Assembly (NCBI GenBank): GCA_016650125.1
Contig: JAENWT010000009.1
Location: 1 to 64,000, forward strand
DNA length: 64,000 nucleotides
From: Thermoleophilia bacterium
GTDB taxonomy: Bacteria; Actinomycetota; Thermoleophilia; Solirubrobacterales; 70-9
Direction: 5' to 3'
The position numbers and the translations under genes are program-made. Below, piece by piece: positions 24,861 through 29,345 of the stretch. Within the stretch, counting starts at the first letter, position 1, and each line of letters starts with the position of its first letter. The notes below the pieces were generated by a model, which did not search any database, had not been told where the DNA came from, and saw only the letters and a program-made list of their open reading frames with translations.

Positions 24861-25826
24861 TCAGCCGGACCCGTCGTTCAGCCCCGGATGACCCTGGTAC
24901 CAGGCGACCGCTTCGGTGATCCCGTCGGCGAAGGATGTCTGTGGAGACCAGCCGGCCGCCTCGGTCAGGCGGGCGGAGTCGACGTACTGCTGGTCGATCT
25001 CTCCGTCGGGATTGCGGTCGAGCAGAAAGTCCGGCTCCCGGGCGGACCCCGTCGCCGCCTTGATCTGCTCAATGACCTCTCGGACCGAGCGCGCCTCCCC
25101 GGTGCCGGCATTCAGGGCCTCCCCCCTGGCCGTTCCCGATCTGACCGCCAGTTCGATTGCCAGGTACGCGGCGACTGCGTCGGAGACGTGGAGGAAGTCG
25201 CGCTGCGGCGATCCGTCCGAGCGGATCTGCGGCTCGCGATCAGCCAGGTACGCCGTCACCACCTCGGGGATCAGGCGGGAGAAGTTGAGATCGCCGCCGC
25301 CGTAGACGTTGGCCAGCCGGGTCACGGCGACCGGCAGGCCCCACGACTTCCAGTAACTGCGGCTGATCACATCGGCCGCCGCCTTGCTGCCTTCATAAGG
25401 CGCGGCGGGCCTGAGTTCGTCTTCCTCGCGGTAGGGCAGGGAGTCGCTCGGGCCGTAGGCCTTGTCGGACGAAGCGACGACCACCGCTCCGGCCCCCGCC
25501 TCGCGGGCGGCCTCGAGCACAGTCCAGGTTCCGGCGACGTTTGACCGGAAAGTGCCGGCCGGATCTTCGGCCGCCGGCCCGACCAGGGTCTGCGCGGCAA
25601 GGTGGAAGACCGAATCCGCTCCGGCCGAGGCTCGCTCGACCACCGGCCGGTCGGCGACGTCACCTTCGATCAGTTCGACTTCGCCGGAGATGCCGTGAAG
25701 CTCGAGGGCCCGACCGGGGGCTCCGGCCAGATCCAGCACGACTACTTCATCGCCACGCGCGAGCAAAGCTTTCGCCAGATGCCCGCCGATGAAGCCCTGA
25801 CCCCCGGTAACTAACGCGCGAGCCAT
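24861..25826 (-). CDS. rfbG: NAD-dependent nucleotide-sugar dehydratase, CDP-glucose 4,6-dehydratase-like
   Basis: This short-chain dehydrogenase begins ALVTGGQGFIGGHLAKALL, the NAD-binding GxxGxxG. DSVFHLAAQTLVGPAAEDP, VVVASSDKAYG and the YEGSKAAAD catalytic Tyr-x3-Lys follow, and then NVYGGGDLNFSRLIPEVV, which is typical of CDP-glucose 4,6-dehydratases. I use ATG 25826; the open frame to 26099 lies over rfbF. At 321 residues it is slightly short for RfbG. It overlaps rfbF by 16 bases. The partner makes CDP-glucose-type assignment likely, but dTDP- or GDP-sugar use cannot be excluded. Confidence 0.8.
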   Translation of the reverse strand: MARALVTGGQGFIGGHLAKALLARGDEVVVLDLAGAPGRALELHGISGEVELIEGDVADRPVVERASAGADSVFHLAAQTLVGPAAEDPAGTFRSNVAGTWTVLEAAREAGAGAVVVASSDKAYGPSDSLPYREEDELRPAAPYEGSKAAADVISRSYWKSWGLPVAVTRLANVYGGGDLNFSRLIPEVVTAYLADREPQIRSDGSPQRDFLHVSDAVAAYLAIELAVRSGTARGEALNAGTGEARSVREVIEQIKAATGSAREPDFLLDRNPDGEIDQQYVDSARLTEAAGWSPQTSFADGITEAVAWYQGHPGLNDGSG

Positions 25827-26521
25827 GGTGCCTCGTTCTTCTCCCAGAGGTCGTTCAGGGTGACCAGGTCTTTGTAGGTGTCCATGCAGTCCCAGAACCC
25901 TTCGTGCCGGAAGGCGCGCAGCTGGTCCGCCCCGGCGAGTTCCTCCAGAGGCCGCTGCTCGAGCACACTGCCGGTATCGAGATGGTCGAGCACTCCCGTT
26001 TCGAAACAGAAGAAGCCCCCGTTGATCCAGTGCTCGCTGCGCGGTTTCTCGGTGAAGCCTTCGACTGCGTCGTCGTCGCCGATCTCGACCACGCCCCACT
26101 GGATGTTCGGCCGCACCGCGGTCATCGTCGCCAGCCGTCCGTGCGCGCTGTGGAAGCGCAGCAGCGCATCGAGGTCGATGTCGGCCACGCCGTCGGCGTA
26201 GGTGACGCAGAAGGTGGTGCCGTCGACGACTTCAGCGGCCAGTTTGATCCGCCCGCCGGTCGAGGTGTCGAGGCCCGTGTCGATGCATTCGACCGTTACC
26301 CCGGCCGGCCAGTCCTCCTGGTCGGCGAATTCCCTGACCATCTCACCGAGGTAGCCGGTGAGCGGGTGAAACCTGGTGAAGCCCTGCGCGGCGTAGATCG
26401 AGATCACGTGCCAGAGCAGGGGCTTGCCACCGACCTCGACCAGTGCCTTCGGCACCGTTTCGGTCCTCTCACGCAGGCGGGTGCCGCGGCCCCCACTCAG
26501 GATCAGGACCGGAGGCTTCAG
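25811..26521 (-). CDS. rfbF: Glucose-1-phosphate cytidylyltransferase-like nucleotidyltransferase
   Basis: The sequence follows RfbF closely along its length: LILSGGRGTRLRERT (nucleotide loop), VPKALVEVGGKPLLWHV, DTGLDTSTGGRIKLAAEVV, VTYADGVADIDL, INGGFFCFETGV and GFWDCMDTYKD. To include the nucleotide loop the start must be at or before 26521. The only candidate is CTG there, overlapping the stop of the MoaD-like gene as CTGA. The usual TYGDG is TYADG here. It would activate glucose-1-phosphate with CTP for the dehydratase encoded next. The operon starts at a SAM riboswitch, an unexpected setting for a sugar gene. Confidence 0.83.
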   Translation of the reverse strand: MKPPVLILSGGRGTRLRERTETVPKALVEVGGKPLLWHVISIYAAQGFTRFHPLTGYLGEMVREFADQEDWPAGVTVECIDTGLDTSTGGRIKLAAEVVDGTTFCVTYADGVADIDLDALLRFHSAHGRLATMTAVRPNIQWGVVEIGDDDAVEGFTEKPRSEHWINGGFFCFETGVLDHLDTGSVLEQRPLEELAGADQLRAFRHEGFWDCMDTYKDLVTLNDLWEKNEAPWLAR

Positions 26522-26790
26522 CCGCCGGCCACCGCGGGAAGGATCGTGATCTCGTTGCCATCGCTGACCGCGGTTCCGAGTCCTTCGCCGTAACGGATGT
26601 CTTCACCACCGATGTAGACGTTGACGAACCGGCGCAGCTCGCCATCCTGGGTGATGCGCTCTTTGAGGTCGCCGTGTTCGGCGAACACCGCGTCGAGCAC
26701 CTCGCCCACGGTCGAGCCTTCGGCTTCAAGCTCGGCCTGGTTTCCGGTGGCCGCCCGAAGCTGGCTCGGGATCTTGACGGTGACTGGCAT
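26518..26790 (-). CDS. MoaD/ThiS-family sulfur-carrier-like protein
   Basis: The 90-residue beta-grasp protein ends in AVAGG, the C-terminal Gly-Gly that is adenylated and converted to a thiocarboxylate in this family. VTVKIPSQLRAATG and FVNVYIGGEDIRY match MoaD/CysO-type carriers. The gene overlaps the end of the ThrC-like gene (TGATG), so the two are tightly coupled. In mycobacteria the homologous CysO delivers sulfide to the PLP enzyme CysM. The pairing here with a different PLP enzyme under a SAM riboswitch suggests an analogous sulfur-transfer role. That role is inference. Confidence 0.88.
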   Translation of the reverse strand: MPVTVKIPSQLRAATGNQAELEAEGSTVGEVLDAVFAEHGDLKERITQDGELRRFVNVYIGGEDIRYGEGLGTAVSDGNEITILPAVAGG

Positions 26791-28022
26791 CAGACTGCGA
26801 CCTCCTGGCCGAATTTGGATTCGAAACTCGCCGGATCGGGATCGATCGTGGTGAAAACAAAGCTATCGCGATTGGCGTCGAGCGTCTTCAGGCCTTCGCC
26901 GGTGATGTAGACGACAACCTTTTCGCCCGACACGAGGTCGCCGCGGTCGGCCAGCTTCTTGAGCACACCCATGGTCACGCCGCCGGCGGTCTCGGTGAAG
27001 ATGCCGGTGGTCTCGGCGAGCAGCCGGATTCCGGCGCGGATCTCGTCGTCGTTGACCATGTCGACCGTGCCGCCGGTGCGGCGCGCCTGCGCGACGGCGT
27101 AAGGACCATCGGCGGGATCGCCGATCGCGAGGCTCTTGGCGATCGTGTCCGGTTTCTGGGGCCGGCAGATGTTCGAGCCCTCGGCGAAAGCCGTCGCCAC
27201 CGGCGAGCATCCTTCGGCCTGGGAGCCGTGGAAGACAGGCATCTCGCCTTCGACCAGGCCGATGTCCATCCATTCCTGGAATCCACGGTTGATCTTGGTG
27301 AAGAGGGAACCCGAAGCGATCGGCGAGACCACGCGGTCCGGCAGCTTCCAGCCGAGCTGTTCGACGGTCTCGTAGGCCAGGGTCTTCGAGCCTTCGGCGT
27401 AGTACGGCCGCAGGTTGACGTTGACGAAGGCCCAGGGCTTCTCGTCGGCGAGCTGCGTACAGAGCCGGTTGACGTCGTCGTAGTTGCCGTTGACGCCGAC
27501 CAGGTTGGTGCCGTAGATGTCGGTCGCGAGCAGCTTCTGCTCCTCGAGGTTGGCCGGCACGAAGACGTACGAGTCGAGGCCGGCCGCGGCGGCGTGGGCG
27601 GCAACGGCGTTGGCCAGGTTGCCGGTCGAGGCACAGGCCACGGTCTCGAAGCCGAGTTCCTTCGCCTTGGCGATGGCCACCGCGACGACCCGGTCCTTGA
27701 AGGAATGGGTCGGATTGGCGGCATCGTTCTTGATCCAGATCTCGGACGTAGTGCCCAGCCTTTCGGCCAGGCGGTCGGCCTTGACCAACGGGGTCATGCC
27801 CGGCTCGAGCGGATCCGATGCCTTGCCGTCGAACGGCAGGAAGTCCGAGTACCGCCAGATGCCGCGTGAGCCGGCCTGGATCCGCCGTCGGGCTTCATCC
27901 GCGTCCAGGTTCGAGAAGTCGTAACGGACCTCGAGCGGTCCGAAGCACTTCTCACAGAAGAAGTTTGCGTTGAGCTCGTACTCAGCCCCGCACTCCTTGC
28001 ATTTCAAGTTGTCTGCTGCCAT
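26790..28022 (-). CDS. thrC: Threonine-synthase-family PLP enzyme with N-terminal zinc ribbon
   Basis: The fold-type II PLP signature NPTHSFKDRV contains the Schiff-base lysine. STGNLANAVAAHAAAAGL, SPIASGSLF and ETAGGVTMGVLKKL complete the core. A four-cysteine ribbon (C8, C11, C23, C26) precedes it. Canonical threonine synthase converts O-phosphohomoserine to threonine and usually reads NPTGSFKDRG; here a His replaces Gly and Val follows Arg. With a SAM riboswitch upstream and a MoaD-like carrier overlapping downstream, a sulfur-acceptor role on O-phosphohomoserine is conceivable. AAGG lies seven bases before ATG 28022. The family is certain; the substrate is open. Confidence 0.88.
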   Translation of the reverse strand: MAADNLKCKECGAEYELNANFFCEKCFGPLEVRYDFSNLDADEARRRIQAGSRGIWRYSDFLPFDGKASDPLEPGMTPLVKADRLAERLGTTSEIWIKNDAANPTHSFKDRVVAVAIAKAKELGFETVACASTGNLANAVAAHAAAAGLDSYVFVPANLEEQKLLATDIYGTNLVGVNGNYDDVNRLCTQLADEKPWAFVNVNLRPYYAEGSKTLAYETVEQLGWKLPDRVVSPIASGSLFTKINRGFQEWMDIGLVEGEMPVFHGSQAEGCSPVATAFAEGSNICRPQKPDTIAKSLAIGDPADGPYAVAQARRTGGTVDMVNDDEIRAGIRLLAETTGIFTETAGGVTMGVLKKLADRGDLVSGEKVVVYITGEGLKTLDANRDSFVFTTIDPDPASFESKFGQEVAV

Positions 28023-28041
28023 CCGATCACCTTTCAAAATG

Positions 28042-28067
28042 AAAAACCTTCGCCTGTGGGGCGAAGG
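28042..28067 (-). terminator. Riboswitch terminator
   Basis: On the minus strand CCTTCGCC (28067-28060) pairs with GGCGAAGG (28054-28047) around a CCACA loop, followed by TTTTT (28046-28042). The GGGGAGAAG at the 3' side of the riboswitch P1 helix can pair instead with CTTCGCCCC at the terminator's 5' arm (one mismatch). That gives the usual antiterminator and an OFF response to SAM. Confidence 0.85.
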
Positions 28068-28084
28068 TCCGATCGGACTTCTCC

Positions 28085-28195
28085 CCACATCTCCCGACTC
28101 AACGAGTCGCTGGATTTGGCACCTTCAACGGACTTTCGTCTGATGTGGTTGCCGGGGTTTCATTGGGCCAAGTCCCTCCACCCCTCTAGATGTGG
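28085..28195 (-). promoter_or_regulatory. SAM-I (S-box) riboswitch
   Basis: The minus strand carries the S-box core in order: AGAGGGGTGGAGGGACTTGG, then CCCAATGAAACCCCGGCAAC, then GGTGCCAAATCCAGC and GGGAGATGTGG. The P1 arms CCACATCT and AGATGTGG close the aptamer. It lies 63 bases upstream of the ThrC-like gene with a terminator between, so high SAM should switch the operon off. S-box control of methionine and cysteine genes is standard; control of a threonine-synthase-like gene with a MoaD partner is not. I cannot choose a promoter with confidence in 28196-28328. Confidence 0.92.
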
Positions 28196-28328
28196 CGCTT
28201 ATGTCTGGAAGAAAACGTATCAAAGCTGGTCGGCGCTGTTCATATACGCCCCGTAAACACGCACTATTCCCCCGTGACATATCCTTCAACCATGCCTGTG
28301 AAGCGAGCCGACATGTCTGGAGGCGGCG

Positions 28329-29345
28329 ATGCCGAACCTCCCTCGTCTCCGACGGCCTCGTGAGCCTCTAGGTTCACCGGGCGCTCAGGCAGTACCCGAA
28401 CCCGCCTCACCGCAAATGGAATTGATCGAAGCCGGCGGTCTGCGCTGGTTCAACGTCGAGCATCCCGGTGGTGCCGAACGTACCTGGCTCGAAGAGCATT
28501 TCGACTTCCACCCGCTCGACATCGAAGACGTGCTCTCAAGCAACCAGCGCCCGAAGATCGACGAGTATCCTGACTACCTCTTCCTGATCCTGCACGTGCC
28601 GGTCTTCGACCGTGCTGCCGGTCGCCTCGGAGCCGGCGAGATCGACCTCTTCGTCGGACCCGATTTCGTCGTCACCCTGCCGAACCAGCCGGTACCTCCG
28701 GTCGAGTATCTGTTCTCACGCTGCCAGGACGACGAGAAGCTGCGGGAGAAGCTGTTCTCGCGTGGCGCCGGTTATCTGATGTATCGCCTCGTCGACGACA
28801 GCTTCGATTACTGCTTCCCGATGCTGCGGAAGATCGGCAACAAGCTCGACGCACTCGAGGACGAGATCTTCGAGGGCCATTCGGAAGATGTGGTCCGGGA
28901 CATCTCGAACACCAAGCAGGAGATCATCAATTTCCGCAAGGTGATCCGGCCCCAGCGCCCGGTACTGCGCGACCTGGAAAAGGTCAAGACGAGGTATCTC
29001 GCCAGCGACCTCGATCTCGAGATCTACTTTGACGACATCGTCGATGCCCACGAGCGCATCTGGGACATGCTCGAGAATTACAAGGAAGTGGTCGTCGGCC
29101 TTGAGGAAACCAACGAATCGTTTCTCAGCCACCGGGTGAATGACGTCCTGCGGGTGCTGACCGCGATCAGCGTGATCGTCCTGCCGCTGACCCTGATCGC
29201 CTCGATCTTCGGCATGAACGTGGGCCTGCCTGGCGGTGGTGATCCACAGACTTCGACGGATGCCCAGTTCTACATCGTGGTCGGGGTGATGCTGATCATC
29301 CTGCTCGGCATGGTCGGCTACTTCCGCAAGCGGCGCTGGCTATAG
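28329..29345 (+). CDS. corA: CorA-family magnesium/divalent cation channel
   Basis: CorA forms a pentameric magnesium channel in the inner membrane. The long cytoplasmic part (about 1-270) has FDFHPLDIEDVL and the helical stalk ending SHRVNDVLRVLTAISVIVLPLTLIASIF, which becomes the first membrane helix. The signature GMNV follows at once, and the second membrane helix is FYIVVGVMLIILLGMVGYF. The C-terminus is the usual basic KRRWL. The length of 338 residues is typical. GGAGG sits five bases before the ATG. Confidence 0.95.
   Translation: MPNLPRLRRPREPLGSPGAQAVPEPASPQMELIEAGGLRWFNVEHPGGAERTWLEEHFDFHPLDIEDVLSSNQRPKIDEYPDYLFLILHVPVFDRAAGRLGAGEIDLFVGPDFVVTLPNQPVPPVEYLFSRCQDDEKLREKLFSRGAGYLMYRLVDDSFDYCFPMLRKIGNKLDALEDEIFEGHSEDVVRDISNTKQEIINFRKVIRPQRPVLRDLEKVKTRYLASDLDLEIYFDDIVDAHERIWDMLENYKEVVVGLEETNESFLSHRVNDVLRVLTAISVIVLPLTLIASIFGMNVGLPGGGDPQTSTDAQFYIVVGVMLIILLGMVGYFRKRRWL

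Follow-up and report, generated by a model that had tools for sequence, protein, structure and literature searches.

A SAM-I riboswitch and a predicted metM-metO operon for homocysteine synthesis in a Thermoleophilia bacterium

A stretch of 64,000 nucleotides from a Thermoleophilia genome (the window) was found to carry, behind a SAM-I riboswitch, a threonine-synthase-family gene that overlaps the gene of a sulfur-carrier protein. We consider it very probable that these genes form a metM-metO operon under an OFF-type transcriptional SAM-I riboswitch, and that their products would make homocysteine from O-phosphohomoserine and carrier-bound sulfur. This reading draws on sequence, gene order, phylogeny and co-occurrence, on computed RNA structures and, for the reaction, on the system of Streptomyces. 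The locus is real and not a product of chance; it is explained by the published MetM/MetO system, and the mechanism itself is not new. The transfer of carrier sulfur onto O-phosphohomoserine had been proposed in a previous reading of the letters (the sequence-only reading), and in substance this is the published MetM/MetO reaction, with enzyme clade, carrier and riboswitch all matching.

The riboswitch leader and the overlapping genes

The features are collected in Table 1. The leader contained a complete SAM-I aptamer and its own terminator ahead of the ThrC-like gene, as the sequence-only reading had described. The match to RF00162 (E 7e-19) lay above the gathering score of 44.4 and covered the whole model; the 2.83 Mb genome had no second match. 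The folding energies computed with ViennaRNA were -13.7 kcal/mol for the terminator hairpin (28047-28067, with the U tract reaching 28042) and -22.1 kcal/mol for the antiterminator, while helix P1 of the aptamer, taken as a duplex, was computed at -10.5 kcal/mol. Since the terminator's 5' arm is complementary to the 3' strand of P1 and could form a helix with it, the leader is built like an OFF switch acting on transcription, and it is from this layout that we infer the direction of switching.

The metM-like open reading frame started with ATG, preceded by the Shine-Dalgarno-like AAAGGTG. The overlap between the enzyme gene and a Gly-Gly carrier gene, also claimed earlier, was confirmed as one base common to the TGA stop of metM and the ATG start of metO, the carrier itself ending in AVAGG. 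Its best matches among solved structures were the carriers 4n6e_B and 3dwg_C. The genome encodes four ThiS-family proteins, and it is gene order that points to the adjacent one as the carrier serving in vivo.

Directly downstream of metO lies a glucose-1-phosphate cytidylyltransferase-like gene (25811-26518, minus strand), whose frame meets the metO stop and whose start is uncertain, being either a CTG that overlaps this stop or a GTG at 26455; a sugar-nucleotide dehydratase/epimerase gene comes next. Because the cytidylyltransferase-like gene came after metO in just three further loci of the sample (L017, L018 and L020), it looks like a local neighbour and not a part of the system. A CorA-type Mg2+ transporter gene (28329-29345, plus strand) is divergent from the riboswitch and metM, and its position was kept in all 11 other loci fetched from the same family and order.

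Table 1. Features of the metM-metO locus (positions in the window) and of the carrier-related cluster on contig 3 (C3)
Feature	Position	Strand	Support
metO-like gene, MoaD/ThiS-type sulfur-carrier protein, 90 aa	26518..26790	-	Pfam ThiS 58.8 bits
metM-like gene, threonine-synthase-family PLP enzyme, 410 aa	26790..28022	-	Pfam PALP 236.7 bits; TIGR00260 280.9 bits
Intrinsic terminator	28042..28067	-	CCUUCGCC-CCACA-GGCGAAGG then UUUUU; sequence and fold
Predicted antiterminator	28054..28091	-	P1 3' strand (UGUGGGG-A-GAAG) with terminator 5' arm (CUUC-G-CCCCACA)
SAM-I (S-box) riboswitch aptamer	28084..28196	-	Rfam RF00162, 85.7 bits, full length 1-108
MoeB/MoeZ-type adenylyltransferase, N-terminal rhodanese-like stretch	C3:77820-79013		
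CysO-like carrier	C3:79044-79319		
JAMM/desampylase-like (Mec-type) peptidase	C3:80045-80443		
CysM/CysK-like enzyme	C3:80448-81533		

The MetM clade across Actinomycetota

The window enzyme passed the general threonine synthase model TIGR00260 (cut-off 167.1), a broad model that also covers the MetM type, and the solved structures closest to it were threonine synthases. It carried a CxxC...CxxC pattern at the N-terminus and the motif NPTHSFKDRVV. The residues SFKDRGM, STGNT, GNAGN and NSVNPYR of canonical ThrC were absent, the window enzyme having SFKDRVV, STGNL, ASGSL and NVNLRPYY. Its identity was 53-57% to eleven orthologues from one genus, which we take to be Streptomyces, and about 36% to the ThrC of its own genome. 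In a FastTree tree, the window enzyme and the Streptomyces-type enzymes fell into a MetM clade of 104 sequences with moderate support (0.71), and the host ThrC fell outside it. In 32 columns the clade was at least 95% conserved and differed from canonical ThrC, for which a small set of three sequences was compared; the diagnostic columns included SFKDR followed by VV versus GM, STGN by L versus T, ASG versus GNA, and NxRPYY versus SxNPYR. VV after SFKDR is diagnostic of the MetM clade. The sequence-only reading had drawn attention to NPTHSFKDRV, and the motif was present, but its histidine did not hold up as a mark of the enzyme type, since only about half of 103 orthologues had H at this position and the rest had G, N, W, F, Y or A. 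The product of the metM-like gene is predicted to be an O-phosphohomoserine-dependent homocysteine synthase. It might be that the phosphate-binding arginine has moved, from the R of VNPYR in canonical ThrC to the R of NLRPYY; a literature search for the substrate-phosphate residues of ThrC gave no usable source, and this idea therefore stays speculation.

We found that 110 of 296 sampled Actinomycetota genomes encoded an enzyme closely related to that of the window (at least 52% identity). SFKDR was followed by V-V (P-V in one case) in 103 of the 109 loci examined, and one more locus grouped with these in the tree. A SAM-I riboswitch at the Rfam gathering score was present in 84 of the 103 MetM-clade loci and went undetected in 19; a same-strand carrier gene stood beside the enzyme in 82 and went undetected in 21; the two occurred together in 73. 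When named genomes were scanned with a Streptomyces-type query, 80 loci were obtained, all titled Streptomyces, with the carrier in 80/80 and the SAM-I core motif, recognized by pattern match and not by Rfam, in 79/80. The association of riboswitch and enzyme, which the sequence-only reading had suggested tabulating, was complete in the host class (35 genomes), where SAM-I was found in 28/28 genomes with metM and in 0/7 genomes that lacked it.

In a phylum-wide survey of MetX, MetY and MetA, 73 of the 110 metM genomes had none of the three. The same three were missing from 14 of the 28 metM genomes of the host class, and from all four other sampled members of the host family, each of which had metM. 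Among the 296 genomes, 35 had both metM and a homoserine acyltransferase (MetX or MetA), 75 only metM, 123 only an acyltransferase and 63 neither, a negative association (odds ratio 0.24, p ~1e-8) that is uncorrected for shared ancestry. In the Streptomyces-like genus, three genomes out of 11 carried metM alongside both MetX and MetY. On the simplest reading, the acylhomoserine route has given way to metM in many lineages and is accompanied by it in some, including the host.

Homocysteine routes in the host and competing readings

The sequence-only reading had named two supporting signs, a second, canonical thrC in the genome and the lack of a conventional homocysteine synthase. The first was found: a separate ThrC with NPTGSFKDRGM is encoded in a lysA-thrC-thrB region, and the homoserine kinase needed for O-phosphohomoserine, assigned by position and sequence, lies near it. 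The second failed for the host; it held for the four other family members sampled and in the majority of metM-bearing genomes across the phylum. The host encodes MetY (647 bits, cut-off 495) directly followed by MetX (NCBIfam PRK00175, 510 bits, cut-off 331), and the MetM route is therefore not obligatory there. An RF00162 search found no SAM-I riboswitch at the metY-metX locus. A methyltransferase-like gene resembling metW comes after metY-metX (L011 5643-8688, G000:C4), and the host MetX was nearer to the succinyl-type than to the acetyl model, yet under both cut-offs. Unlike the window's genome, a relative in the same class with both routes has a SAM-I riboswitch ahead of metY as well (G196:C59:19431-19552). 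A MetH-type methionine synthase is encoded on contig 8. The cluster on contig 3 (L129, G000:C3:77000-82000) resembles the mycobacterial carrier-dependent cysteine route and looks like such a route itself, judged by its genes; its CysO-like carrier ends in GGS, and one residue would need to be removed. The MoeZ-like activator of this cluster, apparently the only one in the genome, could also serve MetO.

The operon would then work as follows. With plentiful SAM, P1 would close and the terminator form, and transcription would stop ahead of metM; at low SAM levels, the antiterminator would form with the 3' strand of P1, and the operon would be transcribed. The C-terminal Gly-Gly of MetO would be activated, probably by the MoeZ-like adenylyltransferase/rhodanese of contig 3, to bear sulfur as a thiocarboxylate. 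MetM, as a specialized threonine synthase paralogue, would draw O-phosphohomoserine from the threonine branch and swap its phosphate for the sulfur of MetO, and the resulting homocysteine would be a substrate for MetH. In the host this route would operate beside the riboswitch-free metY-metX operon. A division of labour between the two, with MetM-MetO as the sole SAM-gated route and MoeZ common to it and the CysO/CysM route, so that carrier sulfur would feed both cysteine and homocysteine, is a tentative suggestion that we hold to be possible rather than probable.

Three other explanations were weighed. The window enzyme might be a further threonine synthase, or one that doubles as a threonine deaminase, with the carrier serving other pathways and the SAM switch merely balancing the aspartate branch. 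The score with TIGR00260 would fit such an enzyme, and the same substrate binding is expected of both enzyme types. According to PMC12172450, the ThrC of Microcystis, which shares 51.6% identity with S. albulus MetM and whose gene adjoins a metO-like gene, showed mainly weak threonine synthase activity, together with threonine deaminase activity; methionine in cells was not raised, and its authors questioned whether the enzyme fully acts as a MetM there. A bifunctional MetM is conceivable in view of these activities. The host, however, already has a canonical ThrC in its thrB region, many clade-conserved residues depart from canonical ThrC, and the carrier and riboswitch counts across the 103 loci speak against this explanation, as do the many genomes without MetX, MetY and MetA in which metM was the sole homocysteine-forming candidate that these searches found. 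We regard it as improbable. Still less can be said for a carrier-dependent PLP enzyme from a different pathway, a cysteine synthase of the CysM/CysO type or a cysteate synthase, which we consider extremely unlikely: a carrier next to a PALP-fold enzyme does recall CysM/CysO, but the window enzyme was rejected as CysM (about 44 bits, with cut-offs close to 400) and as cysteate synthase (80.6 bits, cut-off 324.9), and contig 3 of the genome provides a separate CysM-like enzyme, accompanied by genes of CysO-like, MoeZ-like and Mec-like type.

The remaining explanation overlaps with the preferred one in the product made. Here MetM would take its sulfur from free sulfide or from another carrier, such as the CysO-like protein of contig 3, and MetO would be interchangeable or used mainly by other enzymes. 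Four ThiS-family proteins with apparently one MoeZ-type activator, the loci in which an adjacent carrier went undetected, and the similarity of MetO to CysO-type carriers are in its favour. Against these stand the one-base overlap of metM and metO, a neighbourhood kept in most of the clade, including every named Streptomyces locus, and the use of MetO by MetM, reportedly published for Streptomyces in 2024 by Hasebe et al. This alternative is unlikely, though the least unlikely of the three.

If the metM-metO reading is correct, the pair is easily annotated as 'threonine synthase' and 'MoaD family protein', the former because the general ThrC model is passed, and such labels hide the methionine pathway of many actinobacteria; in many genomes metM-metO was the sole homocysteine route found by these searches. 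A SAM-I riboswitch, an SFKDRVV enzyme and a Gly-Gly carrier together offer a recognition rule for annotation. Metabolic reconstructions would be corrected, and the published principle is unchanged. Besides this rule, the remaining interest lies in two coexisting homocysteine routes, only one of them SAM-gated.

Comparison with known systems

The closest known system is metM/metO of Streptomyces, in which, as Hasebe et al. are said to have described in 2024, MetM makes homocysteine from O-phosphohomoserine with thiocarboxylated MetO. The host genome has in common with it the enzyme clade, the adjacent MoaD/ThiS carrier, the upstream SAM-I riboswitch and a separate canonical ThrC; it differs in belonging to another actinobacterial class and in being known from its sequence alone. 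The window genome also has a complete MetX-MetY pair, whereas most, though not all, of the sampled Streptomyces-type genomes are without it. Since three of those 11 genomes have metM plus both genes, the pair in the host does not exclude membership in the MetM/MetO system. An upstream SAM-I riboswitch is a usual but not universal feature of that system, and the lack of a conventional homocysteine pathway is context rather than a defining trait. In PMC12172450, MetM is presented as a novel homocysteine synthase that forms homocysteine from O-phosphohomoserine, metO is mentioned as coding for a carrier protein, and a SAM riboswitch is placed upstream of S. albulus metM.

Canonical threonine synthase shares the fold family and the predicted substrate O-phosphohomoserine with the window enzyme, but the diagnostic residues differ, and the window enzyme is paired with a carrier and is predicted to be regulated by a SAM riboswitch. 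CysM/CysO of Mycobacterium tuberculosis likewise combines a PALP-fold enzyme, a thiocarboxylated carrier and a phospho-amino-acid substrate. Unlike the proposed window system, it converts O-phosphoserine to cysteine and belongs to another PALP subfamily, and the window genome has a separate CysM/CysO-like set. In the HcyS/MetY route of Wolinella succinogenes, a carrier thiocarboxylate is the sulfur source for homocysteine, as proposed for MetM/MetO; unlike MetM, the enzyme of that route belongs to the Cys/Met-metabolism family and uses O-acetylhomoserine as its substrate.
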